Positions 7,084-36,118 of a stretch of DNA of 45,338 bases are shown here, in pieces; within the stretch, counting starts at the first letter, position 1, and every line of letters begins with the position of its first letter. This DNA is from a virus, in the IMG/VR virus record IMGVR_UViG_3300043395_002348, positions 1 to 45,338 of that record, one strand, 5' to 3'. The position numbers were made by a program, and so were the translations under genes. The notes beneath the pieces were generated by a model, which saw only the letters and a list, made by a program, of their open reading frames with translations, had not been told where the DNA came from and searched no databases.

Positions 7084-7992
7084 ATGGATTATATTAGACT
7101 CTTAGACATTACAAACCAATACCCAAACTTACCAAGCTACGTTAGACAAAACGAAAAATTGGTAAACTTATTTGGTCTATACAAAGAAACGAATAAGTTA
7201 GAATTTAAAATGCCATCAATTGAATATATAAAGCCAGTTGATGATTTAAATTTAAGATTAATATTTGGATTTAGAAAAAATATAGAGGATAAAGATATAA
7301 AATATTTTACATCTCAGCAATTTTATTCTGATATGGAAGCTTCAAACATTGAGGGTAATCCGTATTTTTATTTACAATCAAATAAAGTTCAGTTTATTGT
7401 TTTAGTAAATTTAGAAAAATTTATTTCAACATTTGAAAAACTAAAAGAAATTGAAAATAAGCAGGGTATAGATGTTAAAATAAATAATTTTATAAGACAA
7501 GATAGTTCAATTAATTACGAAAGATTAATGAGATATTTTGATTGGGTTTTATCAAAACCATCTTTGGATGAAATAGATACTGATGGTGTAATACCTGCTG
7601 ACAAATTAGCAGAATGGGAGGTTGGTGATTATGACCCGATTATGATGAAATGGTCATTTAATAAAGATAAAGATGCTAAAGCAAAAGAAAATATACAACC
7701 ACCACCTGTAAGTAAATCTACGATTGAAAACTGGAGATTAGTAAGAAAAAGAAATTTAGATAGAAATGGAATGGGTATTTATCCTACTCCAAATGTAAAA
7801 AACTTCAATTCAGGTAAAAAGAATAAGGCTGATAAACGTACAGGTATTATAAACGAAGGTCAAACTTTTACTGGATATAAATACAAAACATTGGATAATG
7901 GATTTGTTATATGGGCACTACAAGGTACGAATGATACAGATCCAACCGGATATGCTTTTCAAGGAAAAGGTGATACTGTAGAAAAGGTTTAA
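7084..7992 (+). CDS. Hypothetical protein (302 aa)
   Basis: A 302-residue soluble protein starting MDYIRLLDITNQYPN. The N-terminal two thirds look mixed alpha/beta with many charged residues; the C-terminal third is Lys/Asn-rich (KKNKADKRTG) and ends in a beta-rich stretch (GQTFTGYKYKTLDNGFVIWALQG). No signal peptide, membrane helix or catalytic motif. A GTG start at 7069 overlapping the deaminase stop is possible and would add five residues. Its late-type motif and position after nucleotide genes give no firm function; not recognised. Confidence 0.7.
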   Translation: MDYIRLLDITNQYPNLPSYVRQNEKLVNLFGLYKETNKLEFKMPSIEYIKPVDDLNLRLIFGFRKNIEDKDIKYFTSQQFYSDMEASNIEGNPYFYLQSNKVQFIVLVNLEKFISTFEKLKEIENKQGIDVKINNFIRQDSSINYERLMRYFDWVLSKPSLDEIDTDGVIPADKLAEWEVGDYDPIMMKWSFNKDKDAKAKENIQPPPVSKSTIENWRLVRKRNLDRNGMGIYPTPNVKNFNSGKKNKADKRTGIINEGQTFTGYKYKTLDNGFVIWALQGTNDTDPTGYAFQGKGDTVEKV

Positions 7993-8004
7993 TATTTTTT
8001 AATT

Positions 8005-8014
8005 ATATTTATAA
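8005..8014 (+). promoter_or_regulatory. Candidate late promoter ATATTTATAA (before 8034)
   Basis: Recurring core with the AA extension, 19 nt before the ATG at 8034, the commonest spacing class of this motif. An AAAAAAGG sequence lies between it and the start codon. Confidence 0.5.
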
Positions 8015-8033
8015 GTAATAAAAAAGGTTGCCG

Positions 8034-8384
8034 ATGGTTAGTCCGAATGTGAAGTGGCAAAAATACCTTAATAGTTCCAACCCTTCTATTAATAGGTATT
8101 TAAACAATTACGGAGATTCACTTCTTCAACAAACATTCCAGCGATTAGCAAACGCTATCAAATCAAAAAAATCTCACATTATTTTATTTCGTTTCAAAGA
8201 TTCCGATATAATTTCAAAAGTATATCAGAGGGACTACATTACTGCTTTAGAAGAATTACTAAATTTATGTGTACGTTTAGAGAAATATGAATTGTGTAGT
8301 GAAATACATTCTCAATTAAAAATTATAAAATTAAAGAAAGCTAGAGGAAAACCAAAAGCAAGGGTTACAAATATTAACCTGTAA
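8034..8384 (+). CDS. Hypothetical protein (116 aa)
   Basis: A 116-residue basic, mostly helical protein (MVSPNVKWQKYLNSS...) ending in a Lys/Arg-rich tail (KLKKARGKPKAR). I chose ATG 8034, preceded by AAAAAAGG at about 6-12 nt, over a TTG two codons upstream. No family recognised. It lies directly before PhoH with an 11-nt gap and is likely co-expressed with it. The basic tail would fit nucleic-acid contact, but that is inference only. Confidence 0.65.
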   Translation: MVSPNVKWQKYLNSSNPSINRYLNNYGDSLLQQTFQRLANAIKSKKSHIILFRFKDSDIISKVYQRDYITALEELLNLCVRLEKYELCSEIHSQLKIIKLKKARGKPKARVTNINL

Positions 8385-20536: not shown

Positions 20537-21193
20537 ATGCAATACGTTAAATCTGCGGTTTTGAACTTAAAAGAGTTTTTGTTCAAGACGTTTCTCTTTG
20601 GTGCGCTGGCTTTCATTATTTGTGCCTTCGCGTTTCAAGTATTTATGGTCTTCTTAGAATTAAGTGGAAGACAGGAACAAATAAGACAAATCACAAACGA
20701 ACTTACTACACGCTTAGATGGTAGATGGAGTGATAATCCAAACAATATTTGGTATCAAGAAGAAGACCATATTTGGGTTGAAAATGTTGAAAACCAAGTT
20801 AAAATTGGTAAGTTAGCCGGAAATAGAAATTTAGCATTTGGTGTTAAAAACATCTTAGAAGAATACCTTCAAGAGAAAGGTTATGACTTATCTCCAAATG
20901 CTCCTTATAAATTAAAAGTAAATATTGTTTATTTGGATGTATTAACCACAAAAACAAATATTGCTGTGTTTCATAAAGGGGAAGAAGAAGTTGTAGTAAG
21001 ATTGCAGGGTATCCTATACAAAGATGGAAAGAAAGAAAAAGAAGTTGTTGTAGAGGAAGGCTCTTCAGAAATTTCAATGTCTACACTCATAGTTGACCAA
21101 GGGGGAAAGTTCAACCAAACTTCTCTTAGTAACGCTCTCAAAAAAGCATCTGATAGTTTAATCAAAAAACTATTTGGTAAAAACGCAAAATAA
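20537..21193 (+). CDS. Membrane-anchored protein with a CsgG/YajG-like domain
   Basis: A 218-residue protein with one N-terminal membrane segment (about 15-39, FLFKTFLFGALAFIICAFAF) and a periplasmic domain. The domain (PYKLKVNIVYLDVLTT, then EEVVVRLQGILYKDGKKEKE) has the alternating strands of the CsgG/YajG-like fold, and its end KFNQTSLSNALKKASDSLIKKL closely parallels the end of the CsgG-like protein at 29139. I infer that the two are related. First gene of the envelope cassette; its stop overlaps the next start (TAATG). Confidence 0.65.
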   Translation: MQYVKSAVLNLKEFLFKTFLFGALAFIICAFAFQVFMVFLELSGRQEQIRQITNELTTRLDGRWSDNPNNIWYQEEDHIWVENVENQVKIGKLAGNRNLAFGVKNILEEYLQEKGYDLSPNAPYKLKVNIVYLDVLTTKTNIAVFHKGEEEVVVRLQGILYKDGKKEKEVVVEEGSSEISMSTLIVDQGGKFNQTSLSNALKKASDSLIKKLFGKNAK

Positions 21194-22866
21194 TGAAAAG
21201 AATAATTCTATTAGCAACATTGGTATTATTTAGTTTCTTAGCAGAGGCTCAAATAATAGTAAACCAGTCAATATCAGCTGGCCCATACAAAGTTGGTGAT
21301 ACCCTAACTGTTACTTATACCGTTGATAAAGGAACTACTAAACCAAGATACTTTTGGTTAAGATATTCTTTTAACAATAAAGCACTTACCTATGTATCAA
21401 CTACATGGAATCAGGGTTCACAATCGCAAACATATTATACAAGTTGGAATAATTACGCATTCACTCCAGCAGCTAGTGCAGCAGATACTTCCTTATATGC
21501 TCAATATCAAGCTACACCTTGGGGATATGCTGTAAATAATGATTGGAATGTTGGGCAATTATCAGTTCAAAGAGCTGACCAATCTGTTAATGGTGTAATT
21601 GCAACCCAAAAATATATCCTTAAAGACCAAAACACTTACAATAACATCTTTAAGTTAAATTTATCTTACGCAATTGATAGTTCAACTGGTGCAAATATTC
21701 CTTATGTGAAAACTACAGCTGGTCCAACTTCAATTACTGGTGTGACTGGTAATACTTCTTATTTCAAAGTAAGAGTTCTATTCCCACAAGGATATGACAT
21801 AACCAAACATCAGGCACAATTGATGCAACTTAAATCAGATGGTAGTGGTGAGATAGATTGGACTAAACCAGCAATTGCAAGTAAAGCATTTGATGGTAGT
21901 GGTGAAGCTATATTCACAACCGGTGTAAAAGTTGGTGATAGTTTAGGTGTATGGGTTGGTGGAGCAGTACAACAGGCATTTATGAATAATATTGTGACTG
22001 TAACCGATGCATACAAATCATTCTTAGGTGTTTCTCAAACTGATATAAATGGAACTCCAACTTTCTTTACTAGACCTGTATTAGAAAAGAAAATTGGTTT
22101 AATCACAAAAGATAAAACTACATTTAGTGAGAGTGATTCTTATTTCTCATTCGCTTATGTAATGGGACAAGATGTATCCGCAAAAGCATGGATACCAACA
22201 AACGCAGCGCCTGTTAATGGAGCTGTGAATTACAAATGGCATGCTGGTTTATTAAATCAGAGTTGGTTAGATGGTGTAGCAAAACATAGAGTATATGTAA
22301 CAACCCCAACACAAACTGTAGATGCTGTTTATGCATGGGGTGGTGATTTAGATTGGTCACACTCATCTTCACCTGAAGCTATTGTAGCAAGTATCAACGC
22401 TGGTAACTTTACAAACAAAGCAAACGATTTGACTATTGGTGAAATCAAAACAATGGCAATGACTTCCAATATGAGTAATGTTTACGAACAAGCTAGAATA
22501 GAATCAACTTCATTAAGTGTTGTTTCTAAATTGGAAGGTGGTAAAGTTGTTCTTACTGCTGGTTTAACTAAAGCTGATTTAGCTGGTTTGCAAGTTATTA
22601 TGAACTACGATTCAACAAAACTAACTTTGGATAATGTGATATTTGATGCTGGTTCTACAATCACTAACTTCTCAACAAAAGATGATGGTAGATTAACATT
22701 TGGTTCTATTGACCAACTAAAAACAGCTAGAATTAAAACAGGAACTCCATATAAATTAATCTTCACACCTAAAGTTTCATTAAGCAATACTGCTGGTTTA
22801 TTCTTCTTTGTATTAGCCGATGCGGTAGATGCTAATGGTAAGAAGGTGGAACTAGTAATTGAATAA
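21193..22866 (+). CDS. Secreted protein with dockerin-like and cohesin-like C-terminal modules (557 aa)
   Basis: Signal peptide 1-19 (MKRIILLATLVLFSFLAEA). Residues about 22-140 form a beta-sandwich (VGDTLTVTYTVDKG). Around 270-325 a TVTDAYKSFLG helix and KDKTTFSESDSYFSFAYVMG resemble a dockerin. GGDLDWSHS follows near 390, then a C-terminal cohesin-like sandwich (about 436-557; VVLTAGLTKADLAGLQVIMNYD). The next gene has the same order of modules, so the two are probably paralogues. The product is likely exported to the envelope or surface of the infected cell; if carried on the virion it would be unusual. Overlaps both neighbours by 1 nt. Confidence 0.7.
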   Translation: MKRIILLATLVLFSFLAEAQIIVNQSISAGPYKVGDTLTVTYTVDKGTTKPRYFWLRYSFNNKALTYVSTTWNQGSQSQTYYTSWNNYAFTPAASAADTSLYAQYQATPWGYAVNNDWNVGQLSVQRADQSVNGVIATQKYILKDQNTYNNIFKLNLSYAIDSSTGANIPYVKTTAGPTSITGVTGNTSYFKVRVLFPQGYDITKHQAQLMQLKSDGSGEIDWTKPAIASKAFDGSGEAIFTTGVKVGDSLGVWVGGAVQQAFMNNIVTVTDAYKSFLGVSQTDINGTPTFFTRPVLEKKIGLITKDKTTFSESDSYFSFAYVMGQDVSAKAWIPTNAAPVNGAVNYKWHAGLLNQSWLDGVAKHRVYVTTPTQTVDAVYAWGGDLDWSHSSSPEAIVASINAGNFTNKANDLTIGEIKTMAMTSNMSNVYEQARIESTSLSVVSKLEGGKVVLTAGLTKADLAGLQVIMNYDSTKLTLDNVIFDAGSTITNFSTKDDGRLTFGSIDQLKTARIKTGTPYKLIFTPKVSLSNTAGLFFFVLADAVDANGKKVELVIE

Positions 22867-25451
22867 TGAGAATATTATTAACAATTTTATTATCTTTAGT
22901 AACGATTTTTGGGTTTGGTCAGCAAGTAAACGCACCAGACCCAAAAACGTTTACACTCAATACCGCTGGACAGGATGGTAGTGGATTTTCATTAAGTGGA
23001 TTCAATACATCATCAACACTTCTTTGTGCAGTTGGATTACCAAGCACTGTAGCCGGAACTACATTCTATTTTACAACAACTACCGGTGTAACTGCATCAA
23101 GTGGTTATACAATGAGTGGAAACAAAACCCGTATTTCATTTACAGGTACTCAAGCTAACATAAATGCTGTTTTGGCATCAATGAAAATTAATACCGGTAG
23201 CACAACTGGTAATGTAAACATATCAGTATCCGCAACAATAAACCCAACTGGTTATTTCTACAACCCAAACAATGGACACTTTTATAGACCTATATCAACC
23301 GGTGCAAACTTTGCTAATGCAATTACTCTTTCATCACAACAAACCTTCAAAGGACAGACTGGATATCTTGTAACAATTACGTCTAATGATGAAGATTTGT
23401 TTATATTCAATAATGTACCACAATCAAATATATGGTTTGCCGCAGATGATAGAACAACCGAAGCTAGATGGGTTATAAGTGCTGGACCTGAAGCAGGAAC
23501 ATTACTTCGTATTGGAAATGCAAGCGGAACAAATCAACAAAATGTTTATAATAACTGGGCTAATGGTGAACCAAACGATTGGGGTGGTAACGAAGATGCT
23601 GCTGTAACAAAATGGGGTGGTGGATTTCAATGGAATGACCTTTCAGTTGCAAATGTTAATGCTTATGTAGTTGAATTTGGAACTTGGACTAACCCTGATG
23701 ACCAAACATTTACTGAATTTTATTCTAATAGTGTTATTCATTCAAACGGCCCAACATTAACAAATATGTTTAATTTTAACTTTGGTTCAAACATAACTGA
23801 AACAAACTTTTCTGCAAAACTAAATAAAAGAAATGATGCCACTTCACAATGGGTAAGCGCTGGAAACTTTGTTGGATTAAATGGTGTTGGTAGAGTTATT
23901 CTCACATCACAATTAGATACCGCAAAAGTTTATACAACAGCAATCCAAGCTACAACACAAAACGATATGACAGCATATTCAACTGCTGATATTGGTAAGA
24001 TATATAAAATGACAATTACAGGTGCACAGGGTGGTGGATGGGGAACTGATATATACACAAATGATTCATATATTCCAGCTATGGCAGTGCATGCTGGTGT
24101 AATAACAATTGGACAAACAAAAGAAGTTTATATACAAATAGTTGAGGGATTGAATGATTATCCAGCATCAACCCGTAATGGTATAACAACAATGGCATGG
24201 GGAGCATGGGGATTGAGTTACAAATTTGTATCAGAACCATCTTCATATAGAGCATTAACCGCAGCTGGACAAGTTGAATGGTGTGTGTTATATGATTACG
24301 ATGCATCAAATCAAAGATATAGAGTTGGTATTGATAAAAGAGAATTTACAGGAACAAATGTATCATCTAATTCAGTAACAAGACTTAAACTATTTGATTT
24401 ATGGGATGGGCCGGTAACTTTCAAATCAGATGATGGAACTTGGGCAGAGTATTGGATTAATACATCAACACAATTTAATTTTGCAGGTTCATCATTTGCT
24501 TCCAGCATCAGACAAGGAAATGGTTTTTGGGGATTGAGTGCAGAATTTAGTTTTGCTGTTAATGGTGCATACAAACAACATAAATTAGTAATGAACGATT
24601 ACGATTCAGTACAATTAAAAACTCTTTATGGTAGTATTGTAACTGTATCGGATGTTTACTTAGCATTTAAAGAATTATCAAATGGTGGTATAATGGGTAA
24701 TCAAAGTGGTAATGAATTTGGATATGGTATTCAATTCAAAAATGCGGATGTTAATGATGATAATATATTCAACGAAGCAGATTGTTTTGCATTACTACAA
24801 GATTTAACCGGAGCTAAAAACTTAGTTAGTAGTTACAAATTAGAAAATACTATGAAGATTATTTTAGATTCAACATATGCAACTATTGGTAAATCTAATT
24901 GGCAACAATTCCCATCTTATTTAGGAAAAGAATATCCATTCGCTTTATCAGATGGTAAAATAAATTACACATATAATCTTGCCGTAACTTGGAAAGGTGA
25001 TGTAAACCTATCACATTCGGCAACACCACCTTCAAATGGTATTACAACAATGTCTGCAAACTTTGGAATGAAAACTCAAACAACTCTACCAACGGCATAT
25101 ACTATTTCTGAAATTAAAGGTGATAGTCTAATAGCTTATATTAAGTTCAATCCTAATATGAATGAAATAGTTGGTACTCAATTTAGAGTAAACTATGATA
25201 ACACTACTTTAAAGTACACAGGAACTTATTTTAAAACCACAGGTTCGCCTATAAACTTTGGGACAGATAAAGGTTCATATATTAACTTAGGTTCTATAAA
25301 CACATCTGGTGAACTTCTGGATGGGTCTACCGAATACCGATTAGTTTTTAAATTAAACAAACAAATTCCTAACTCTTTGGGTTTATTATCTATATCTTCA
25401 AATGAAGCTGTAAACGTAAAAGGAGCTAGTGTTCAAATAAAAATACAATAA
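22866..25451 (+). CDS. Secreted multidomain protein: C-type lectin, LCCL, dockerin-like, cohesin-like (861 aa)
   Basis: Signal peptide 1-19. A C-type lectin-like domain spans about 128-274 with the carbohydrate motif EPN (235-237) and WND (256-258), the mannose/glucose-type pattern. An LCCL-like domain spans about 380-458 (GGWGTDIYTNDSYIPAMAVH, AGVI, NGITTMAWGAWG). A dockerin-like loop DVNDDNIFNEADCFALLQDL lies near 627-647, GDVNLSHS near 715, and a cohesin-like sandwich runs from about 750 to the end. It probably binds glycans at the cell surface or on the virion. Tandem to its shorter relative at 21193 and overlapped by 1 nt on both sides. Confidence 0.75.
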   Translation: MRILLTILLSLVTIFGFGQQVNAPDPKTFTLNTAGQDGSGFSLSGFNTSSTLLCAVGLPSTVAGTTFYFTTTTGVTASSGYTMSGNKTRISFTGTQANINAVLASMKINTGSTTGNVNISVSATINPTGYFYNPNNGHFYRPISTGANFANAITLSSQQTFKGQTGYLVTITSNDEDLFIFNNVPQSNIWFAADDRTTEARWVISAGPEAGTLLRIGNASGTNQQNVYNNWANGEPNDWGGNEDAAVTKWGGGFQWNDLSVANVNAYVVEFGTWTNPDDQTFTEFYSNSVIHSNGPTLTNMFNFNFGSNITETNFSAKLNKRNDATSQWVSAGNFVGLNGVGRVILTSQLDTAKVYTTAIQATTQNDMTAYSTADIGKIYKMTITGAQGGGWGTDIYTNDSYIPAMAVHAGVITIGQTKEVYIQIVEGLNDYPASTRNGITTMAWGAWGLSYKFVSEPSSYRALTAAGQVEWCVLYDYDASNQRYRVGIDKREFTGTNVSSNSVTRLKLFDLWDGPVTFKSDDGTWAEYWINTSTQFNFAGSSFASSIRQGNGFWGLSAEFSFAVNGAYKQHKLVMNDYDSVQLKTLYGSIVTVSDVYLAFKELSNGGIMGNQSGNEFGYGIQFKNADVNDDNIFNEADCFALLQDLTGAKNLVSSYKLENTMKIILDSTYATIGKSNWQQFPSYLGKEYPFALSDGKINYTYNLAVTWKGDVNLSHSATPPSNGITTMSANFGMKTQTTLPTAYTISEIKGDSLIAYIKFNPNMNEIVGTQFRVNYDNTTLKYTGTYFKTTGSPINFGTDKGSYINLGSINTSGELLDGSTEYRLVFKLNKQIPNSLGLLSISSNEAVNVKGASVQIKIQ

Positions 25452-25801
25452 TGAAGTGGATTAAAATTATACTATTGTGTTGTGTGGTTTCTATAATCTC
25501 TTGTAGGAAATTTGATGAAATGCCAACACCACCAAAAGTTGAAGATATATTTTCTGTAAAAGAATTATCAGTATCGGATGGTCAAGATATTAAATTTAGT
25601 TTGCAAGCAGATGGTATATACACATTAACACTTACTGATAACACAACCGAACAGGTTGTAATGAGAGAAAAAATAGTTGGTAAAATTGGAGTAAATTCCT
25701 TAAAAATGTGGACAAAATCGTTACAATCAAAATATTTATATTTATCACTTGAAGATGAAAGTGGTAAACAAATAGGTAAAACGTTACTTTTAATAAACTA
25801 A
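25451..25801 (+). CDS. Lipoprotein A of a tandem pair (116 aa)
   Basis: Lipoprotein signal peptide ending SIISC, lipidated Cys18 followed by RKFDEMPTPPKVE. The mature part is a small beta-sandwich (IKFSLQADGIYTLTLTDN, then YLYLSLEDESGKQIGKTLLL) resembling the fold of T9SS C-terminal sorting domains. The next gene has the same Cys-RKFDE-x-P start and the same kind of fold, so the pair arose by duplication. Coupled by TAATG to the lectin gene; possibly an anchor or partner for it. Confidence 0.75.
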   Translation: MKWIKIILLCCVVSIISCRKFDEMPTPPKVEDIFSVKELSVSDGQDIKFSLQADGIYTLTLTDNTTEQVVMREKIVGKIGVNSLKMWTKSLQSKYLYLSLEDESGKQIGKTLLLIN

Positions 25802-25814
25802 TAAATTAGAAAAA

Positions 25815-26186
25815 ATGAAAAAAGTAATTATATTCTTATTTGGTGTACTAATTTTCGCTGGATGTAGAAAGTTTGATGAGTTTCCAATTCCACAACCTAC
25901 ACCAAATTCAGAACTAAAGATAGAAGGAGCAGCTGGTTTAAAATTACAATCAGTATTCGTAACTTCTGAGGTTGCAATAAATGTAAAATTGGAAAACGCT
26001 GGAAACGTTACTATTAAGATTTTTGATATAGCTAATAGAGTTGTATCAAAAGAAACAATGTACGCAAATTCTGGTGATAATATACTAAAGGTATATACTA
26101 ACGCTTTTCCATCATCCGCATACCGTATTGGTTTGTATGATGCAAATGGTAAGATGATAGGTATTACTGATTTCAATAAGTTATAA
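25815..26186 (+). CDS. Lipoprotein B of a tandem pair (123 aa)
   Basis: Lipoprotein signal peptide ending IFAGC, then CRKFDEFPIPQPTP. The C-terminal part (NVTIKIFDIANRVVSKETMY, then SSAYRIGLYDANGKMIGI) matches the strand pattern of Bacteroidota T9SS type-A sorting domains. A lipoprotein with such a domain is odd, because T9SS cargo normally has a Sec signal and a terminal sorting domain, not a lipobox. Here the fold may simply be a small partner-binding sandwich. Confidence 0.75.
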   Translation: MKKVIIFLFGVLIFAGCRKFDEFPIPQPTPNSELKIEGAAGLKLQSVFVTSEVAINVKLENAGNVTIKIFDIANRVVSKETMYANSGDNILKVYTNAFPSSAYRIGLYDANGKMIGITDFNKL

Positions 26187-26214: not shown

Positions 26215-26526
26215 ATGTCAGAAGAATTAGAGCAATCAAACGATGGCACTTGGTCAGGTTTGAAAAAGACTATTATTGGTGTTGTAACAACAGCAGTTAT
26301 GGGCTTAGGAACTTGGGGTGTTACCCAAATCACAGGTGGTGGGGATGAACCAGCTCCAGCTCAAGCAGCACCGGTAATCAACATTACAAACTCAAACCAA
26401 CAATCTCAAGCAGCAAGTGGTGGTACAACTAAAGTTATCGAAAGAGAAAAAGTTGTAGAAAAACCAGCAGCACCTGTTAAAAAGAAAGAGGGTGATGAGT
26501 TTAAAGAAAAAGCTCCTGAGTGGTAA
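26215..26526 (+). CDS. Single-pass membrane protein with Pro/Ala-rich tail (103 aa)
   Basis: A 103-residue protein: a short charged N-terminus, a membrane segment at about 18-40 (TIIGVVTTAVMGLGTWGVTQI), then an Ala/Pro/Gln low-complexity periplasmic part and a Lys/Glu-rich end (KVIEREKVVEKPAAPVKKKE). N-in topology is likely. It is followed without a gap by a tiny membrane ORF and by another membrane protein, so this stretch is a run of membrane genes. A spanin or holin-accessory role is possible but unsupported by any motif. Confidence 0.65.
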   Translation: MSEELEQSNDGTWSGLKKTIIGVVTTAVMGLGTWGVTQITGGGDEPAPAQAAPVINITNSNQQSQAASGGTTKVIEREKVVEKPAAPVKKKEGDEFKEKAPEW

Positions 26527-26636
26527 TAGATTGGTATAAGATTGGAGTAACCGCATTTTTCGTGCTCTTTTTTATATGGGCAGGAATACATGCAGATAGA
26601 CAAAGAATAAAAAACGAAAAAGATGGCAGAAAATAA
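26520..26636 (+). CDS. Tiny membrane protein (38 aa, GTG start)
   Basis: An ORF starting at GTG overlapping the previous stop and ending 14 nt into the next gene. The product is one hydrophobic helix (WYKIGVTAFFVLFFIWAGIH) with a basic tail (ADRQRIKNEKDGRK), a typical single-pass topology. The overlaps at both ends and the clean topology make it plausible, but it has no homologue that I recognise and the GTG start is not certain. Confidence 0.4.
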   Translation: MVIDWYKIGVTAFFVLFFIWAGIHADRQRIKNEKDGRK

Positions 26637-27285
26637 TCAACCACCAAGTGGTTTTAAAGATTTATTAAATAGTATGATGAAACGCAGATGGTGGATTACT
26701 GCGTTAGTACTAGGTGGATTTATGTTTATTATGGCAGGGATGTTCTTTGCTATATTTAATAAATCTGCAATAGAAGGAGAGTGGAAAGAACTTTTACTTT
26801 TATTGTTAGGAGCTTTCATTGGTTCTTATGGTAAAATCATTGATTATTGGTTTAGTGATACCGATAAAGATAAAATGTTAGTTCAAAAAATGGATGAGGA
26901 AGATGGTACATCATTAAGCAACACAGCTGATATGCCTGTAACTCCACCAAATAACACTCCATTAATTCCAGACGCATTTGTACAAGCTGCAAATCATGCA
27001 CATGAAATCAATTTGATTGAAGCTAACAAACCAAAGGAAGAAAAAGCAGTTGATGTAGTAGAAACAAAACCAGCTCCTAAAGCACAACCAAGAACAGGCG
27101 TAGAAGTAGATGAAGATGGTGATGGAACTATGGACGGTATTGATTTTGATGGTGATGGTAAGATAGATGTATATTTCGCACATAGACAATGTGAACACAT
27201 TTGGGGAGATTCCGATAACGATGGTGACTTGGAATGTTTGAAATGTGGAAAGATAAAAGATGAAGATGCTGAACAAGCAGGCTAA
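26623..27285 (+). CDS. Membrane protein with Ca-binding-type repeat and Cys pairs (220 aa)
   Basis: Two membrane segments (about 24-47 WITALVLGGFMFIMAGMFFAI and about 58-72 LLLLLLGAFIGSYG), a Pro-rich linker, then VDEDGDGTMDGIDFDGDGKI (about 166-185), an EF-hand or thrombospondin-3-like double loop. A C-terminal C-x10+-C/C-x2-C arrangement (QCEHIWGDSDNDGDLECLKC) may form a small zinc ribbon. It shares the calcium pattern with the protein at 12303. The acidic loops would face the cytoplasm or periplasm depending on topology; unknown function. Confidence 0.7.
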   Translation: MAENNQPPSGFKDLLNSMMKRRWWITALVLGGFMFIMAGMFFAIFNKSAIEGEWKELLLLLLGAFIGSYGKIIDYWFSDTDKDKMLVQKMDEEDGTSLSNTADMPVTPPNNTPLIPDAFVQAANHAHEINLIEANKPKEEKAVDVVETKPAPKAQPRTGVEVDEDGDGTMDGIDFDGDGKIDVYFAHRQCEHIWGDSDNDGDLECLKCGKIKDEDAEQAG

Positions 27286-27321
27286 TAGGTTACAATAAAA
27301 GTAACATTAAATTAAAGAAAA

Positions 27322-27588
27322 ATGGGATTTATTAAAGACCTTTTCAAAGACAACAACGATATTAATGAGAAATCAGTAGTTGGTTTCCTATCGTTCACAA
27401 TGATGGTTATAGCTTTGTTTGTAGACCTTATCACAGGATGGATGGGTAAGGAACTTTTGATTAACGAATACATCTTCAACGGATTTTTGGTTATCACTTT
27501 AGGTTCTTTCGGCATCGCTTCAGTTGATAAATACATCAACAAAAAAGCTGATGGGAAGAAAGAAAGTTCCGAAGAAGAACTAGGATAA
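27322..27588 (+). CDS. Possible holin-like two-segment membrane protein (88 aa)
   Basis: An 88-residue protein with a charged N-terminus (MGFIKDLFKDNNDINEK), two hydrophobic helices (about 19-39 VVGFLSFTMMVIALFVDLIT and about 50-66 IFNGFLVITLGSFGIASV), and a Lys/Glu-rich tail. The size, two-helix topology and charged tail fit a class II holin or a phage holin superfamily member. No endolysin is adjacent; cell-wall peptidases of this window lie in the tail operon. Other roles for a small membrane protein are equally open. Confidence 0.5.
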   Translation: MGFIKDLFKDNNDINEKSVVGFLSFTMMVIALFVDLITGWMGKELLINEYIFNGFLVITLGSFGIASVDKYINKKADGKKESSEEELG

Positions 27589-27960: not shown

Positions 27961-28575
27961 ATGGCAGGTATCGCAGACCAATTCGCAGGTCTTCCTATTG
28001 AAGACTTGATTGTTTCACCGATTGTTGGTATGGCAAAAGGTCAAGCAAAACTGAACGAAGTAACTTGGAAATACATCTCAGAAGTAGCTTTCGTAACAGA
28101 TGAAAAAACTAAGAAAACTAAAGCTCGTTCTTTAGATGTAGAAATGAACAGAGTTGTAACCGATGGTGCAACAGGACAACAAACACTTCAAAAGGTGTAC
28201 AGTAAAGTTCCAATGTTACCATTAGTTCCACTTCCTTCATTAGCAATCACTTCAGCGGATATTGAATTCGCTATGGAAGTTAAAACTTCTGAATCAGAAA
28301 AAAGTGATGTAAAAACTGAAAGCAGTGTTGAAGTATCTGCTGGTGGTAGATTTTGGGGTATGAGCTGGAATGCAAAAATTTCTGGTAAAGTAGCTACAAA
28401 CAAAGAGAACACTAGAAGTACTGACAACTCAGCAAAGTATAATGTAAAAGTACACGCTGAACAATTACCAGCAACTGAAGGTATGTTGAAATTATCAGAT
28501 TACCTAACTCAAATGTTAGAACCATCTTTAATTCCACTTACTGATGACCCAGCGCAAGGTGGTGGTAAGAAGTAA
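27961..28575 (+). CDS. DUF2589-family protein (204 aa)
   Basis: The start (IADQFAGLPIEDLIVSPIVGMA) followed by a helix (KGQAKLNEVTWKYISEV) is the DUF2589 signature. The middle is a beta-rich core (LVPLPSLAITSADIEFAMEV, then SVEVSAGGRFWGMSWNAKIS). DUF2589 proteins occur in bacteria and some phages and have no assigned role. It is paired with a second protein of similar design at 28604. Neither has a signal peptide, so they stay in the cytoplasm or enter the virion. Confidence 0.8.
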   Translation: MAGIADQFAGLPIEDLIVSPIVGMAKGQAKLNEVTWKYISEVAFVTDEKTKKTKARSLDVEMNRVVTDGATGQQTLQKVYSKVPMLPLVPLPSLAITSADIEFAMEVKTSESEKSDVKTESSVEVSAGGRFWGMSWNAKISGKVATNKENTRSTDNSAKYNVKVHAEQLPATEGMLKLSDYLTQMLEPSLIPLTDDPAQGGGKK

Positions 28576-28603: not shown

Positions 28604-29080
28604 ATGGCAAGATTAAATGTAGAGGAACTTGTAGGCGGTCTCTTAGAGGCCGCTATGGTTTCTCAAGGTATAAGTGAAAGACAGCATATTAATGCTCTCC
28701 GAAACTATTTCAATGAAGATGGTACACCCAAAACCACTACCTTTAATATAGGTGGTAAGGATTTGGTTGTACCTCTTTATATTTTAGCAGACCACTCATC
28801 CATTGGATTAGATGAATTAGATATTGAGTTTACTTGTAGACTCATATTTGGTGATGAAGATAAAGATGTATCCAGTCTTAAAAAATCTCTTTTGGGATTG
28901 TTTAAGAAAAAAGGATACGAACACAATATCAAAGGTATTGAGGTTGATTCTGGGTTTAATCCAAATGAAACTGGTATGGCTAAAATAAAGGTTAAGTTTA
29001 AGGCTGATGAGAAACCAGAAGCCGTAAGTAGACTCATTGATGAATATATCAAAAATTTGGAAGACCCAAATGTAAAATAA
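28604..29080 (+). CDS. DUF2589-associated protein (158 aa)
   Basis: A 158-residue protein beginning with a helix (LNVEELVGGLLEAAMVSQGI), followed by strands (VVPLYILADHSSIGLDELDIEF, then MAKIKVKFKADEKPEAVSRLID). The sequence VPL..L..H.SI.LDELDIEF parallels the VPLPSLAITSADIEF of the preceding gene, so the two share a core fold and likely form a complex. No enzymatic residues are evident. A strong terminator follows. Confidence 0.7.
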   Translation: MARLNVEELVGGLLEAAMVSQGISERQHINALRNYFNEDGTPKTTTFNIGGKDLVVPLYILADHSSIGLDELDIEFTCRLIFGDEDKDVSSLKKSLLGLFKKKGYEHNIKGIEVDSGFNPNETGMAKIKVKFKADEKPEAVSRLIDEYIKNLEDPNVK

Positions 29081-30021: not shown

Positions 30022-30084
30022 AAAACGCTTTCATAGTTATTGAGGAACTAACTAAAATAACTCTATGAGAGCGTTTCTTTTTTT
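30022..30084 (+). promoter_or_regulatory. Terminator-like hairpin covering the TonB-receptor start codon
   Basis: AAACGCT...CATAGTTAT (30023-30040) pairs with ATAACTCTATGAGAGCGTTT (30057-30076) with one small bulge and one mismatch. CTTTTTTT follows (30077-30084). The receptor ATG (30065-30067) lies inside the 3' arm and the T-run encodes the signal-peptide leucines and phenylalanines. It can act as an intrinsic terminator, a translation-blocking hairpin, or both. Confidence 0.65.
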
Positions 30085-32542
30085 ACTGTTACTATTTCCA
30101 TTTGTAACATATTCGCAAGTAACAATTAAAGGTGTTACAAAATCTAAATCCGAAAACATTTATTTTTCGCATATAAGTTTTAAGCATTCGGATGGGAGTG
30201 TATATTCTACCATATCAAATGAAAATGCTGAATATAAAATAAATCTTAAAGAAGGTTTATACAATATTAAAGCAACTTATATTGGATATAAAGAATATAC
30301 AAATCAAATTAATATAACATCTGATATAACTTTTGATATAGTATTTGAACAATCCGAAACACAATTATCAGAAGTAGTTGTAAGAAGCCTTCCACAAAAA
30401 GTAACTGAAGTTTCCGTAGTTAGAACTATTAGAAATAGTAATGTTGTATCCGATGGATTATCTATTGAGTTTATTAGAAAAACTCCCGATAGAAATTTAG
30501 GTGATGCACTTAAAAGAGTAAGTGGTGTAACAATACAAAACGATAAGTTTGTATTAGTTAGAGGATTAGCAGACCGTTACAATTCCGCATGGTTAAATAA
30601 AACACCACTGCCATCAACAGAGCCAGACAGAAGAGCATTTTCTTTTGATATAATTCCAACATCACTAATTGATAACATTATAGTTGCTAAATCAGCATCC
30701 GCAAATTTACCTGGCGATTGGGCAGGTGGATTAGTACAAGTTTCAACAAAAGAAGTATCCGATAACTTTTTTAATATCTCATTGGGAAGTGGTTGGGGCT
30801 CGGTTTCTACTTTTAGAGATTTTAAGTTAGTTCAAGCTACCGATTTCCCTTCCACATTCCCATCAACATATGGATACCGAATTAGTGGAAATGGTGATAA
30901 GAGAGCATACACAAAATTATTTAATAATCCATCAACTAAAACATTACAATCAATACCTAACTTAAATGGTGGACTTTCATTTGGTATAAAAAGAGGCAAA
31001 TGGAATTCTCTTTTTAGTTCAACAATCAGAAATTCATTTGTATTAAATTATATTGAAAGAAAAGATTATCAATCATCAACTGAATTAGCTTATGATTACA
31101 AAGATACTTTATTTACAAAAAGATTTTCCGCAAATGGTTTACTTAACTTAACTTATTTAGGAGATAATCGTTATAGCTGGAAAACATTAGTTAATTATCA
31201 GGAAGATGATACATACTTAACGCGTAATGGTGATAACTTTGATAATGTTCAGAATGTTAAAAGTACATCATCAAACCACCTTAATACAATTGTAATAAAT
31301 TCTCAGTTTGATGGTAAGATTAAAACATTAGATTTTAATTTAGGATACAATCATATCTTTAGAGAACAACCTGATTACAGAGTTAATCCAATTACAAAAT
31401 CATTAGGTATTAATGAGCATTATTCAACTGCATGGAGAGATACATATCGTTTTTGGAGTGTAATGGATGAAAATTCTTTTAATGGTAATATCAATAAAGA
31501 ATTTGGTAAGGTTAAGTTAGGTGGTGGTTATCTAAAAAAGATTAGAGGATTTAACGCTAGAGTATTTCGTTATCTATCAACCGATATGTTAGATGAAATA
31601 ACAAACAATACCGATAGATATACAGCCGATTTTGATTTAGGTTCTCTTTACTCAATGTATGAAGATGAATTTGGTAAATGGAAATTAAACGCTGGATTGA
31701 GAGGTGAATATAACTTATTTGATGTACAAACAGCAGATTTTAGTGGACAAAAAATAAATGTAGATAGAGAGTATATGGATGTTCTTCCTTCAGTAAACCT
31801 TTCATATAATGAAGAAAAAAGTAAGTATAGATTTTCATTAAGTAAAACATTAGCAAGACCTGAATTTAGAGAAGTAGCTAATTTTGCTTATTATGATTTT
31901 GTTAGAAACGCACAAATATTAGGAAACTCAAAGTTAGAAAAATCTGACATTTATAATGTAGACCTTAAATACGAATGGTATCCAAAAATAGGTGAGAATA
32001 TTTCAATATCCGCATTTGGTAAAAACTTTATTAAACCAATTGAACAAATTGTAGCAGATGGTTCAGTTCCATCAAATTTACTTCTAACATATTCTAATCC
32101 AAATTCAGCTGTTTTGTATGGTATGGAATTAGAAGTTCGTAAAAAGATAAATGGTTGGTTTGATTTCTATACAAACGCTTCGGTGATGAATTCAGAAGTA
32201 GAAGTGAATAGTGTGAAAAGACAATTACAGGGGCAATCAAATTATGTATTAAACGCGGGAGTGAACATTCACAAAAAGAACAATACTATCAACTTAACTT
32301 ATAATAGAGTTGGTGATAGAATTTCAGCAGTAGGATTTCAGGGTTATCCTGATATTTTTGAAAATAGTAGAGATGTTATTGATATAACATTCTTACATAA
32401 ACTTTCGAAAGGAGAAATAAAGTTGGCAATAGGTGATGTACTTGCGCAACCATCAATCTATTATCAAAAGTTACAAAAAAGAAATCTAATTAAAACAAAT
32501 AACGAACAAACAATTTCGTTATCATTAAATTTAACATTATGA
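30065..32542 (+). CDS. TonB-dependent receptor, complete (825 aa)
   Basis: Outer-membrane receptor. Signal peptide 1-17 (MRAFLFLLLLFPFVTYS); carboxypeptidase-regulatory-like domain about 20-100 (VTIKGVTKSKSENIYFSHIS); plug about 120-240 (RVSGVTIQNDKFVLVRGLAD and ANLPGDWAGGLVQVSTKE); barrel strands to the C-terminal TISLSLNLTL, a typical last strand. The substrate is unknown. The gene overlaps the downstream surface lipoprotein by 4 nt (ATGA), the arrangement of a host transporter pair, yet lies among phage genes with late-type promoters. Its start codon lies in a strong hairpin. Confidence 0.88.
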   Translation: MRAFLFLLLLFPFVTYSQVTIKGVTKSKSENIYFSHISFKHSDGSVYSTISNENAEYKINLKEGLYNIKATYIGYKEYTNQINITSDITFDIVFEQSETQLSEVVVRSLPQKVTEVSVVRTIRNSNVVSDGLSIEFIRKTPDRNLGDALKRVSGVTIQNDKFVLVRGLADRYNSAWLNKTPLPSTEPDRRAFSFDIIPTSLIDNIIVAKSASANLPGDWAGGLVQVSTKEVSDNFFNISLGSGWGSVSTFRDFKLVQATDFPSTFPSTYGYRISGNGDKRAYTKLFNNPSTKTLQSIPNLNGGLSFGIKRGKWNSLFSSTIRNSFVLNYIERKDYQSSTELAYDYKDTLFTKRFSANGLLNLTYLGDNRYSWKTLVNYQEDDTYLTRNGDNFDNVQNVKSTSSNHLNTIVINSQFDGKIKTLDFNLGYNHIFREQPDYRVNPITKSLGINEHYSTAWRDTYRFWSVMDENSFNGNINKEFGKVKLGGGYLKKIRGFNARVFRYLSTDMLDEITNNTDRYTADFDLGSLYSMYEDEFGKWKLNAGLRGEYNLFDVQTADFSGQKINVDREYMDVLPSVNLSYNEEKSKYRFSLSKTLARPEFREVANFAYYDFVRNAQILGNSKLEKSDIYNVDLKYEWYPKIGENISISAFGKNFIKPIEQIVADGSVPSNLLLTYSNPNSAVLYGMELEVRKKINGWFDFYTNASVMNSEVEVNSVKRQLQGQSNYVLNAGVNIHKKNNTINLTYNRVGDRISAVGFQGYPDIFENSRDVIDITFLHKLSKGEIKLAIGDVLAQPSIYYQKLQKRNLIKTNNEQTISLSLNLTL

Positions 32543-33744
32543 AAAAACTATTAGGAATTATTTTATTATTAGGATTATTTAGTTGTAGTAAAGATTTGGG
32601 TGGAGTAGATGATAGACCAATCAATGTACCACTTACAACAACACTTAGTGGAACTTATCAAGAAACTATCACACTAACCGCAGATAAAGTGTGGACATTA
32701 AAAGGATATGTTTATATCACAAATGGTTCTCGACTTATCATTCAGCCAGGTACAACAATTGTATCTGACATTGCTGAAAAGGGTGCATTAGTAATTGAAA
32801 GAGGTGCACAAATTATAGCAGATGGTACACCAACAAAACCAATAGTATTTACTTCAGGCAAACCGGAAGGTCAAAGAGCACCTGGTGATTGGGGTGGTAT
32901 TGTAATTTTAGGATTAGCACCAACAAATAGGTCAACTTATCCAACAATTGAAGGTGGTATTGGTAGAGTGTATGGTGGTGAATTACCAAATGATAATAGT
33001 GGAATACTTCGTTATGTAAGAATTGAATACGCTGGTATTGCGGCAATGCCAAACTCTGAAATCAACGCACTAACATTGGGTGGTGTTGGTAGTGGTACAA
33101 TCATTGAAAATGTTCAAACTATTTACGCTAACGATGATGCATTTGAATTCTTTGGTGGAACTGTATCACCTAAAAATCTATACGCATATGCAACTGCAGA
33201 TGATGATTACGATTTTGATTTTGGATACATCGGAAGTGTAACAAATAGTGTAGCAAAGAGAGACCCACAATTCGTAGATAATGGTGATGCTGGAAATGGT
33301 GTAGAATGTGATAACGATGGAACAGGCTCAACCGCACAACCTTTTACACATCCTAAATTAAATGGTATGATTCTTATTGGACCATTTGATGCAACCGCAT
33401 TATCAAATCATAATTTTGGTTTAAGATGGAGACGTGCAACTCAATTTACAATGACAAATTCAAAAATATTAGGTTATCAAAAAGGTGGTTTCTCTATCGA
33501 AAGTAACGAAACAGCACAGGCATATAAGGATGGGGTTTCTAAATTCTTAAACAATGAAATCCAAACATTTGACCCACTACAAAACTTTAGGTCAACATCA
33601 TCAGTATTTACTGCAGCTCAAATGAAAACAAAAGCATTGGGTGAAGGGAATGTGGAAAAAACTTACACAAAAGCTGAAATGGATGTATTATCTAAACCTT
33701 TATGGATTAATGGTTGGACTAGATTCCCAGCAAAGGGATTTTAA
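32539..33744 (+). CDS. Surface lipoprotein partner of the TonB receptor (401 aa)
   Basis: Lipoprotein signal peptide with lipidated Cys at 16 (LLGLFSC), then SKDLGGVDD. The mature part has a right-handed parallel beta-helix pattern (LKGYVYITNGSRLIIQPGTT, ALVIERGAQIIADGT, PIVFTSG), then GDWGGIVILG and YVRIEYAG. Bacteroidota often pair this kind of lipoprotein with a TonB receptor, where it probably acts as a substrate-capturing lid or surface component. Translational coupling to the receptor by ATGA supports a joint role. A terminator follows. Confidence 0.8.
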   Translation: MKKLLGIILLLGLFSCSKDLGGVDDRPINVPLTTTLSGTYQETITLTADKVWTLKGYVYITNGSRLIIQPGTTIVSDIAEKGALVIERGAQIIADGTPTKPIVFTSGKPEGQRAPGDWGGIVILGLAPTNRSTYPTIEGGIGRVYGGELPNDNSGILRYVRIEYAGIAAMPNSEINALTLGGVGSGTIIENVQTIYANDDAFEFFGGTVSPKNLYAYATADDDYDFDFGYIGSVTNSVAKRDPQFVDNGDAGNGVECDNDGTGSTAQPFTHPKLNGMILIGPFDATALSNHNFGLRWRRATQFTMTNSKILGYQKGGFSIESNETAQAYKDGVSKFLNNEIQTFDPLQNFRSTSSVFTAAQMKTKALGEGNVEKTYTKAEMDVLSKPLWINGWTRFPAKGF

Positions 33745-34654: not shown

Positions 34655-36118
34655 TTGAAAGCATTAAAAGGTTTACTATTTTTAATATTCATATTTTGTC
34701 TCAGCTGGAAAGCTAGTGGACAGATATACACACAAACGTATGTAGACAAGTGTAGTGGTGAAGTAAAAATCGCCACTACAACTATGTCTAACGGATTCGC
34801 AACGGTTTCATTCTATAATCAGGTTAAAACATTTACACCTGCCGAAGTTCAAAGTGGAGCAGTTCAAGTTTGGGTAAACGCAACTTATGCTGCATACTCA
34901 ACTATGGCATGCCCAACTAATCAGGTTGTTCAGCAGACAGTAACACAGGCAGTATCACAAGCAACAGCACAAGCTGCAAATGCAGCAGCATCTGCTGCAA
35001 GTTCTGCAGCTAGTTCCGCGGCTTCATCAGCAGCAAGTTCAGCAGCTTCATCATCTGCATCATCAGCGGCAAGTAGTTCAGCATCATCTGCGGCATCTTC
35101 ATCGGCAAGTGCTGGAGCTGCAAGTAGTGGAGCATCCGCATCAACTTCATCTACACCGCCTGCAAGTTCATCTTCAAGCAGTAGTAGTTCATCTTCATCA
35201 TCCAGCGGTTCATCATCGTCTGGTGGTTCTTCTGGTGGTGGTTCTTCCGAACAAAAATCTGAAACAAAGACAGAAACAAAGAGTGAGCAGAAGCAAGAGC
35301 AGAAGCAAGAAGAACAAAAGCAAGAGCAAAAACAGGAAGAGAAAAAAGAAGAAACTAAATCGGAAGAAAAGAAAGAGGAAAAGAAGGAAGAGTCTAAAGA
35401 AAAAAAGGAAGAAAAGAAAGAGGAGAAAAAAGAAGAAAAGAAAAAAGGTAAAGTTCAAGCCTTAAACCCAATGATACTTTCATCTGATTTGGCAGGTATG
35501 CAAGGACCTGACCAAAAGGTATCTATGATGATGAGTGTTGGTATCTCTAAATCATCTCTAATGGGTGATAAATCATATTCTGCTACCGCACTTATATGGA
35601 GTACCTTAGACCAATATGCGGTGAGTGGTGGTATGACTAAGATGGATTTTGAAGAAGGTAAACTAAATGGTATCCACTCTTATTCAGCAACATTCGCATA
35701 TCTAAAAGGAACTTGGATGGCGATGCAAGGATACACTTATATCAAACCACATCCAAAATATGGCACATATGGTATGAATGCAGGTCTTATTCATTTGGTT
35801 ATGAGAAATTCTGAAAACACCGGATACAACTATTCCCTTATGACTTCTTTTGTAGGATTTTGGACTAAACCATATCAGGTCAACAAAAAAACCACATTAT
35901 CTCCATCAGTATTTGTAATGAACCAACCAATTAGTTATAATACAAACACTTTAGCAACTATGGTTAATCGTTCACCCGGCTTCATTCTGGGAACTGATTA
36001 CGCATATAAGATAAGTAGAAGGTTTGCTTTTGGAGCATCCTACAAAGCAGTTATAGGATTATCACCGAACTTTAATTTGATGCATAACATTCAGATTGGT
36101 TCAAAATTAGCATTCTAA
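34655..36118 (+). CDS. Outer-membrane-type protein with Ser/Ala and Lys/Glu low-complexity regions (487 aa)
   Basis: The TTG start at 34655, 4 nt after the previous stop, is supported by the signal peptide directly after it (MKALKGLLFLIFIFCLS). A small N-terminal domain (about 25-90) leads to a Ser/Ala/Gln tract (about 95-200), then a long Glu/Lys/Gln coil (about 205-270). The C-terminal 215 residues form a beta-barrel-like domain (KVSMMMSVGISKSSLMG ... NIQIGSKLAF). The layout suggests a barrel anchored in the outer membrane with an extended periplasmic or surface arm. Slipped-strand length variation is likely in the tracts. Function unknown. Confidence 0.65.
   Translation: MKALKGLLFLIFIFCLSWKASGQIYTQTYVDKCSGEVKIATTTMSNGFATVSFYNQVKTFTPAEVQSGAVQVWVNATYAAYSTMACPTNQVVQQTVTQAVSQATAQAANAAASAASSAASSAASSAASSAASSSASSAASSSASSAASSSASAGAASSGASASTSSTPPASSSSSSSSSSSSSSGSSSSGGSSGGGSSEQKSETKTETKSEQKQEQKQEEQKQEQKQEEKKEETKSEEKKEEKKEESKEKKEEKKEEKKEEKKKGKVQALNPMILSSDLAGMQGPDQKVSMMMSVGISKSSLMGDKSYSATALIWSTLDQYAVSGGMTKMDFEEGKLNGIHSYSATFAYLKGTWMAMQGYTYIKPHPKYGTYGMNAGLIHLVMRNSENTGYNYSLMTSFVGFWTKPYQVNKKTTLSPSVFVMNQPISYNTNTLATMVNRSPGFILGTDYAYKISRRFAFGASYKAVIGLSPNFNLMHNIQIGSKLAF
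34970..35430 (+). repeat. Low-complexity coding repeats (Ser/Ala then Lys/Glu)
   Basis: About 34970-35260 consists of imperfect GCAAGTTCA/GCATCATCA-type codon repeats for Ala and Ser; about 35260-35430 has AAAGAGGAA-type repeats for Lys and Glu. The antisense and alternative frames stay open here only because of base composition. Confidence 0.7.

Follow-up and report, generated by a model that had tools for sequence, protein, structure and literature searches.

A phage gene pair predicted to encode an exported C-type lectin with cohesin-like modules and its cohesin-fold partner

Introduction

What would a phage do with a protein that combines parts resembling animal lectins with parts resembling those of cellulosomes? 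The question is raised by the IMG/VR virus record IMGVR_UViG_3300043395_002348, a linear sequence of 45,338 bases that was analysed here as a whole (the window). A preliminary description had pointed to an open reading frame (ORF) at 22866-25451 as encoding a phage protein with C-type lectin, LCCL-like, dockerin-like and cohesin-like modules. That frame is exact, lies on the plus strand, begins with ATG and encodes 861 amino acids, and the peptides quoted from it, WGTDIYTNDSYIPAMAVHAG and NGITTMAWGAWG, are both present in the product, which we call protein B. Upstream, and overlapping it by one base, lies the gene for protein A (21193-22866, 557 amino acids), a predicted exported partner with two cohesin folds whose homologues adjoin B in IMG/VR. 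All parts of A and B are given below in plus-strand positions.

We consider it probable on balance that the phage-encoded proteins A and B are exported by Sec and form a complex, destined for the envelope or surface of an infected Bacteroidetes-type host, that binds glycans with calcium. The computed basis for this consists of leaders that follow the Q-rule of Bacteroidetes, heads of sugar-binding type with intact motifs, an optional LCCL module, a tail shared by A and B, and a second cohesin fold in A.

Results

The head of protein B

The C-type lectin fold, which had been proposed from the EPN and WND motifs, was borne out by the AlphaFold model of B (mean predicted local distance difference test (pLDDT) score 79.8, predicted TM-score 0.63). 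Both motifs are present with an acidic residue between them in a domain at 23247-23693 (residues 128-276), and residues 128-281 of the model superpose on DC-SIGNR (1sl6_D) over 124 residues with a Z-score of 16.4 and a root mean square deviation (rmsd) of 2.2; the best Foldseek match of the model was CEL-I (E 1.5e-6). In an alignment of 59 B homologues N237 is kept in 57, and E235, P236, E243, W256, N257 and D258 are kept in 55, the other four carrying PA14-type heads. The complete set EPN-E-WND was found in 86 of 87 distinct lectin-type B proteins, the single miss being an ORF truncated at its N-terminal end by the edge of the contig. We take these residues to be the calcium-2 and sugar ligands by analogy with mannose-binding protein, and EPN-type C-type lectins bind mannose-type sugars. 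With the animal mannose-type lectins (DC-SIGNR, mannose-binding protein, CEL-I) B shares the fold and the EPN / E / WND set, but unlike them it has no cysteines in this domain, and the window protein scores below the Pfam cut-off for Lectin_C (PF00059; E 0.018, 16.2 bits versus 22.6), a family that is matched at E <= 0.01 in 48 of the 59 homologues.

The LCCL domain (23949-24245, residues 362-460) was upheld as well, with a PF03815 match of 43.7 bits (curated cut-off 22.6; E 3.3e-11) that covers profile positions 36-92 of 96 only. When a profile of 11 LCCL copies was searched against the PDB, the LCCL domain of cochlin (1jbi) came out on top (E 2.8e-4), followed by the yeast LCCL-like protein Rxt3; rows of the glucocorticoid receptor in the same search correspond to a zinc-finger stretch and were dismissed as chance matches. 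The module is optional, being matched by PF03815 in 11 of the 59 aligned B proteins and present in 25 of 104 distinct ones. Among 25 whole IMG/VR records, which were picked for having A, LCCL was found in three, always in B and never outside it. The phage copies share the Pfam profile, the 1jbi match and a conserved VHAG core with the LCCL domains of cochlin and factor C. Animal LCCL domains use disulfides, but no cysteine occurs in any of the 11 aligned phage copies.

In some relatives the lectin domain is replaced by a PA14 domain (Pfam PA14 in 4/59 aligned proteins; 24.9 bits versus a cut-off of 24 in locus L072), and the DD motif is present in all 15 PA14-type B proteins. PA14 domains with a D-cis-D motif are described as binding hexoses (fucose, glucose, mannose and N-acetylglucosamine) via calcium (PMC6650083). 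Such heads are also those of adhesins of the RTX and Epa/Flo kinds, whereas here they sit on a phage dockerin-cohesin tail. Two unrelated calcium-sugar folds, C-type lectin and PA14, alternate at the same place in B, and because these folds with the same calcium chemistry interchange there, we read the head as a glycan binder; the swap with intact calcium chemistry is taken as the strongest sign of this. Glycan binding, suggested in the preliminary description, is supported as the likely activity of the head by the motifs kept in both kinds.

Two further domains belong to B outside the tail. The N-terminal beta domain (22920-23249, residues 19-128; pLDDT about 80-94 over most of its length) falls in no named family, and a PDB profile search gave no convincing sequence relative. 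The middle beta domain (24240-24599, residues 459-578) exists in two diverged versions among relatives, which are 28-73% identical to the version in the window, and the corresponding PDB profile search found no sequence relative.

The tail shared by A and B

The middle domain of B is followed by a dockerin-like part (24600-25031, residues 579-722) and a C-terminal cohesin-like domain (25077-25448, residues 738-861). The former contains one complete calcium loop, with D628, [ND]630, [DN]632 and D639 kept in 59/59 homologues, and in the AlphaFold model a helix (637-648) follows, so that a complete 12-residue dockerin loop plus helix is present. A second motif, GDVNxSHS, with its G, D, N, S, H and S invariant in the same 59 sequences, lies 84 residues past the first loop and out of tandem order; the tandem loop-helix repeat of type I dockerins is absent, and the part should be named dockerin-like rather than dockerin. 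The Pfam dockerin family PF00404 was matched at E <= 0.01 in 8 of the 59 homologues, and a PDB profile search found a serine protease (8x39/8x3a) together with several dockerins. Among the modules named in the preliminary description, the dockerin is more weakly supported.

For the C-terminal domain, Pfam Cohesin (PF00963) was matched at E <= 0.01 in 30 of the 59 homologues and scored above its curated cut-off in 15 of the 25 records, the window itself giving 14.4 versus 24.1 bits. The best PDB profile match was the scaffoldin B cohesin 4ums (E 0.0056), and in the structure search with the B model cohesins came next after lectins (2jh2_A, TM-score by target 0.66). The comparison of predicted structures with cohesin folds, proposed earlier as a check, returned cohesins for the models of both A and B. 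On these sequences the modules of B are not a product of chance, because intact family members occur across dozens of diverged records.

Protein A begins, after its leader, with a cohesin-fold domain (21250-21753, about residues 20-187; pLDDT about 90 over most of it) that superposes on the cohesin-like 2jh2_B over 130 residues (Z 13.4, rmsd 2.4), and cohesins made up nearly all of the top 50 rows of a structure search with it. The last ~300 residues of A are paralogous to the B tail (hhalign probability 99.4, E 7.8e-22, 270 columns) and include a GGD[LM][DN]xSHS-type motif. The dockerin-like part of A (21976-22377, residues 262-395) aligns with that of B and has a degenerate calcium loop; D272, D315 and D385 are found in 31/31 aligned A proteins, and the confidence of the model is low here. 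The C-terminal cohesin-like domain of A (22498-22863, residues 436-557) was recognised by hhalign to the B tail and by Pfam Cohesin, which matched 14 of the 31 aligned A proteins at E <= 0.1 and mapped to the C-terminal end in several records. The earlier idea that these parts link B to the product of the gene at 21193 stands insofar as A is paralogous to the B tail and has cohesin folds of its own, while mutual cohesin-dockerin binding is a step that we infer.

Occurrence of the pair in large phages

A search of the 25 whole records for the shared tail found exactly two places in every one of them, A and B, and no third tail-bearing protein elsewhere in these genomes. A and B are adjacent for 72 of the 74 B-like ORFs whose locus has an A-like ORF, and five more have no A in view. 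In L052 an extra ORF of 217 amino acids without Pfam match (7655-8308) lies between A and B, and the same is seen in L053. A mutation or an assembly error has broken B of L005 (7682-9467) into separate ORFs of 397 and 209 amino acids; A of L005 is identical to A of L004, in which B is whole.

Judged from its PHROG matches (DNA helicase, PhoH, thymidylate synthase, endolysin-type) and from the recurrence of the pair, the window is phage. The pair recurs in large-phage records of up to 287 kb. Host origin or contamination was rejected, given that the pair is present in 25/25 IMG/VR records, 12 of them with the gene for the T4-type capsid protein Gp23. Profiles of B and A found no relative in 84,980 bacterial and archaeal genomes, in a scan by short conserved patterns for which absence is not proof, and tblastn of both proteins against 50,697 phage records gave no match; with a PA14-type B as query, the sole match in these records was a PA14 stretch of 27% identity. 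BFVD contains a related phage protein (A0A6J5M064, named 'Secretion system C-terminal sorting domain'; Foldseek E 2.8e-14). Judged by thymidylate synthase, the nearest annotated isolate record is that of a Flavobacterium phage (47% identity).

Exchange of modules in protein B

Relatives were collected from IMG/VR with A (101 found, best 80 kept) and with the tail alignment (225 found, best 80 kept). The 149 B-like ORFs comprise 104 distinct ones, namely 62 with the lectin and no LCCL, 25 with both, 15 without the lectin and two that are cut. On a tree of A with 70 rows, from which L005 (broken B) and L018 (cut B) were left out, the presence of LCCL needs 10 changes, with well-supported branches forcing eight of these, and four changes are needed for the PA14 head. 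Close pairs of loci illustrate such changes. L036 and L052 have A proteins that are 97.1% identical and B proteins that differ in the presence of LCCL. B of L036 and B of L040 are 97-100% identical mostly past residue 281 and 68-80% identical in most of the lectin region; between L025 and L026, B is conserved at 97-100% identity across residues 81-400, and identity drops to 33-58% for much of the middle domain, which has been replaced. As read from these comparisons, B evolves by recombination of whole modules and A stays steady. Diversification of the B head by a diversity-generating retroelement (DGR) was rejected because reverse transcriptase (PF00078) was found in none of the 25 records, most of which are fragments.

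Export signals of A and B

The signal peptides of B (22866-22919, residues 1-18) and A (21193-21249) have predicted cleavage sites before Q19 and Q20. In window numbering, Q19 is present in 59/59 aligned B and Q20 in 31/31 aligned A proteins, at the end of a typical signal peptide. A wider scan for a signal followed by [AGSC]Q was positive for 81 of 82 A and 77 of 79 B proteins; the two missed B proteins are TTG-started with a normal signal, and the missed A (L021) has no start in its ORF call. As background, the pattern occurred in 154 of 1181 other ORFs of at least 100 amino acids, and in 16 reversed proteins. The Q-rule is described as Bacteroidetes-specific and true of most Sec and signal peptidase I substrates (PMC5837995), and likewise in PMC10653852. 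These leaders point to predicted Sec export of A and B with cleavage by signal peptidase I before the Q, and since they follow the Q-rule, a Bacteroidetes-type host is suggested for this phage. They speak against the suggestion in the preliminary description that B is a virion protein, as invariant leaders of this kind on both proteins imply Sec export and not tail assembly in the cytoplasm.

The surrounding genes

By eye, a signal followed by Q was seen in seven window proteins, those of A, B, 29097, 30065, 33826, 34655 and the minus-strand gene 2-2884. Almost all genes between 20537 and 36802 encode a signal peptide, a lipobox or a membrane segment at their start, which is not the case for later genes such as 40296; the products of 25451, 25815, 32539 and 9851 are lipoprotein-like. 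The order 20537, A, B, 25451, 25815, 26215, 26623 is mostly kept among 82 loci, many of which end at contig edges, with insertions in some; by tblastn these genes were present in 82, 82, 80, 65, 65, 62 and 58 of the loci respectively. The first of them (20537-21193, plus strand) encodes a membrane-anchored protein with a weak Lipoprotein_16 match (E 4.2e-5, just under the cut-off). Downstream of B, two small lipoprotein genes on the plus strand (25451-25801 and 25815-26186) show the lipobox pattern in 56/67 and 52/66 homologues. The product of the second stands alone and has a weak fold resemblance to type IX secretion sorting domains and to the DUF3244 Ig fold (TIGR04183 at E 4e-4, below cut-off; weak DUF3244 and FlgD Ig-like matches). 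Several of its homologues read C-X-K-(D/E)2 (CYKDDL, CSKEDI), and the window sequence CRKFDE is similar and not a strict match; in Capnocytophaga this pattern is described as the minimal surface-export signal (PMC5080379). Three small membrane proteins with hydrophobic segments follow on the plus strand (26215, 26623 and 27322, together spanning 26215-27588), the last present in 36 of the 82 loci.

The same block contains a gene for a TonB-dependent receptor (30065-32542, plus strand) with Plug and OMP_b-brl_3 above cut-off. It is present in 8/25 related records in all, copies elsewhere being 75-84% identical, and a relative with 26% identity is encoded by the 634-kb phage LR745206. A lipoprotein gene of 401 amino acids (32539-33744) overlaps its 3' end by 4 bases. 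A second gene that resembles a TonB-dependent receptor by eye (2-2884, minus strand) is cut by the left end of the window; it is matched in 10/25 records, of which one is the window itself, eight show 74-89% identity and one shows 38%. The receptor genes are not tied to A-B, because they are present in only part of the records.

Also in the block are two neighbouring DUF2589 paralogues without signal peptides (27961-28575 and 28604-29080; E 2.9e-30 and 1.9e-13) and an exported protein (34655-36118) with long Ser/Ala and Lys/Glu low-complexity stretches and, by eye, the end of an outer-membrane beta-barrel with a terminal Phe. Genes with weak virion-type PHROG matches are found further downstream in the window.

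Discussion

In the literature searched we found no phage protein described with the set of LCCL, C-type lectin, dockerin and cohesin, which agrees with the preliminary description; a search on phage-encoded lectins and superinfection exclusion returned unrelated papers only. Sequences of the A and B types are already public and, as far as the literature was searched, undescribed, and the parts themselves are of known kinds. The cohesin fold of A, the C-terminal cohesin-like domains of A and B and the canonical loop of B resemble cellulosomal and non-cellulosomal cohesin-dockerin proteins (Clostridium perfringens 2jh2, Acetivibrio and Pseudobacteroides scaffoldins). In contrast to those, A-B is phage-borne, has no enzymes attached, carries cohesin and dockerin-like parts in the same chain, and has its second dockerin loop out of canonical order. 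With DGR-diversified phage lectins of the Mtd type B has the C-type lectin fold in common, but it keeps the calcium-sugar site, has a signal peptide and varies by module exchange, with no reverse transcriptase in the 25 records. Phage genes for outer-membrane receptors are likewise found in the megaphage TonB receptors (Mar_Mega_1, LR745206; PMC9723777); the main text of that paper does not contain the terms lectin, adhesin or signal peptide.

For the exported complex that we favour, A and B would be exported, cut before the Q and meet outside the cytoplasm, where the shared tails and the extra cohesin of A would join them through homotypic or cohesin-dockerin-like contacts. A would serve as the scaffold and B as the swappable binder, the two adjoining small lipoproteins, or the outer membrane itself, would hold A-B at the outer membrane, and the head of B would bind glycans with calcium. 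Perhaps A-B then covers the surface glycans of the infected cell itself, so that rival phages miss their receptor. We place this receptor masking first among the uses of A-B because the head is diversified as expected of a partner that follows changing host glycans, and it is the least certain part of our proposal; nearly as likely is that A-B captures glycans for the TonB-dependent receptors encoded in this block, and adhesion and the capture of environmental glycans are close alternatives.

Several points weigh against this reading. The likeness to dockerins is partial, with one complete loop in B and a degenerate one in A. Past its cohesin-fold domain (residues 20-187), A is weakly modelled (mean pLDDT of A 65.8). 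The signal peptides lead to the periplasm only, and an outer-membrane route for A/B was not identified; no NCBIfam match to a type IX sorting domain was found on A or B. The receptor genes, as noted, accompany the pair in a fraction of the records.

Several other readings can be set beside this one. It is possible, though we hold it to be doubtful, that the pair makes a cellulosome-like adhesion organelle, in which A, as a scaffoldin with two cohesins, and B, as a lectin that bears dockerin and cohesin, would be joined by calcium-dependent cohesin-dockerin contacts into a polymeric coat on the infected cell, with sugar specificity evolving by exchange of C-type lectin, LCCL and PA14 heads; if true, this would be the first virus-made scaffoldin system. 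Doubtful too is a role in uptake, with A-B capturing surface polysaccharide for the phage TonB-dependent receptors as a Sus-like auxiliary during infection. The two receptor genes in the window and the B heads, which by motif would bind hexose-type glycans, are consistent with it, and increased carbohydrate uptake has been proposed for a megaphage SusC-type gene (PMC9723777). However, A-B is in all 25 records (chosen for A) and the receptors in part of them only, no glycoside hydrolase was found among the window proteins scanned with Pfam, and NCBIfam places the 30065 receptor in the general TonB family and not in SusC.

C-type lectin folds serve as phage receptor-binding domains, as in Mtd and other DGR targets, and B could accordingly be imagined on the particle, as a fibre or decoration protein attached through A as adaptor, where it would bind the host or mucus glycans from the environment. 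B does vary by module swaps as receptor-binding proteins do, and the genes with weak PHROG matches of virion type further along the window would suit such a role. We nevertheless regard this as improbable in view of the Q-rule signal peptides, invariant on both proteins, and of the lipoprotein and membrane-protein neighbours; moreover, PHROGs has no family for B and for A only a tail-collar match with an E-value of 0.37. More improbable still is a role after lysis, in which the freed A-B would attach to debris or new virions and stick progeny to neighbouring cells or particles, aiding dispersal or aggregation: exported, multivalent, calcium-dependent binders would build up outside the cytoplasm until lysis, but the rest of this scenario is conjecture. 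A virion role thus being disfavoured by the leaders, A-B probably coats or re-equips the surface of the infected cell rather than building the virus particle.

In large phages of Bacteroidetes-type hosts, a whole gene block appears to be given over to exported and surface proteins. It includes this lectin-scaffold pair, which is present in every related record that was searched. Should the pair sit on infected cells, a jumbo phage of lytic type would be rebuilding what the surface of its host binds, by means of modules that resemble animal lectins and cellulosomes. The heads, tails and signal peptides of A-B offer defined parts with which glycan specificity, superinfection exclusion and cohesin-dockerin assembly in a virus may be approached.

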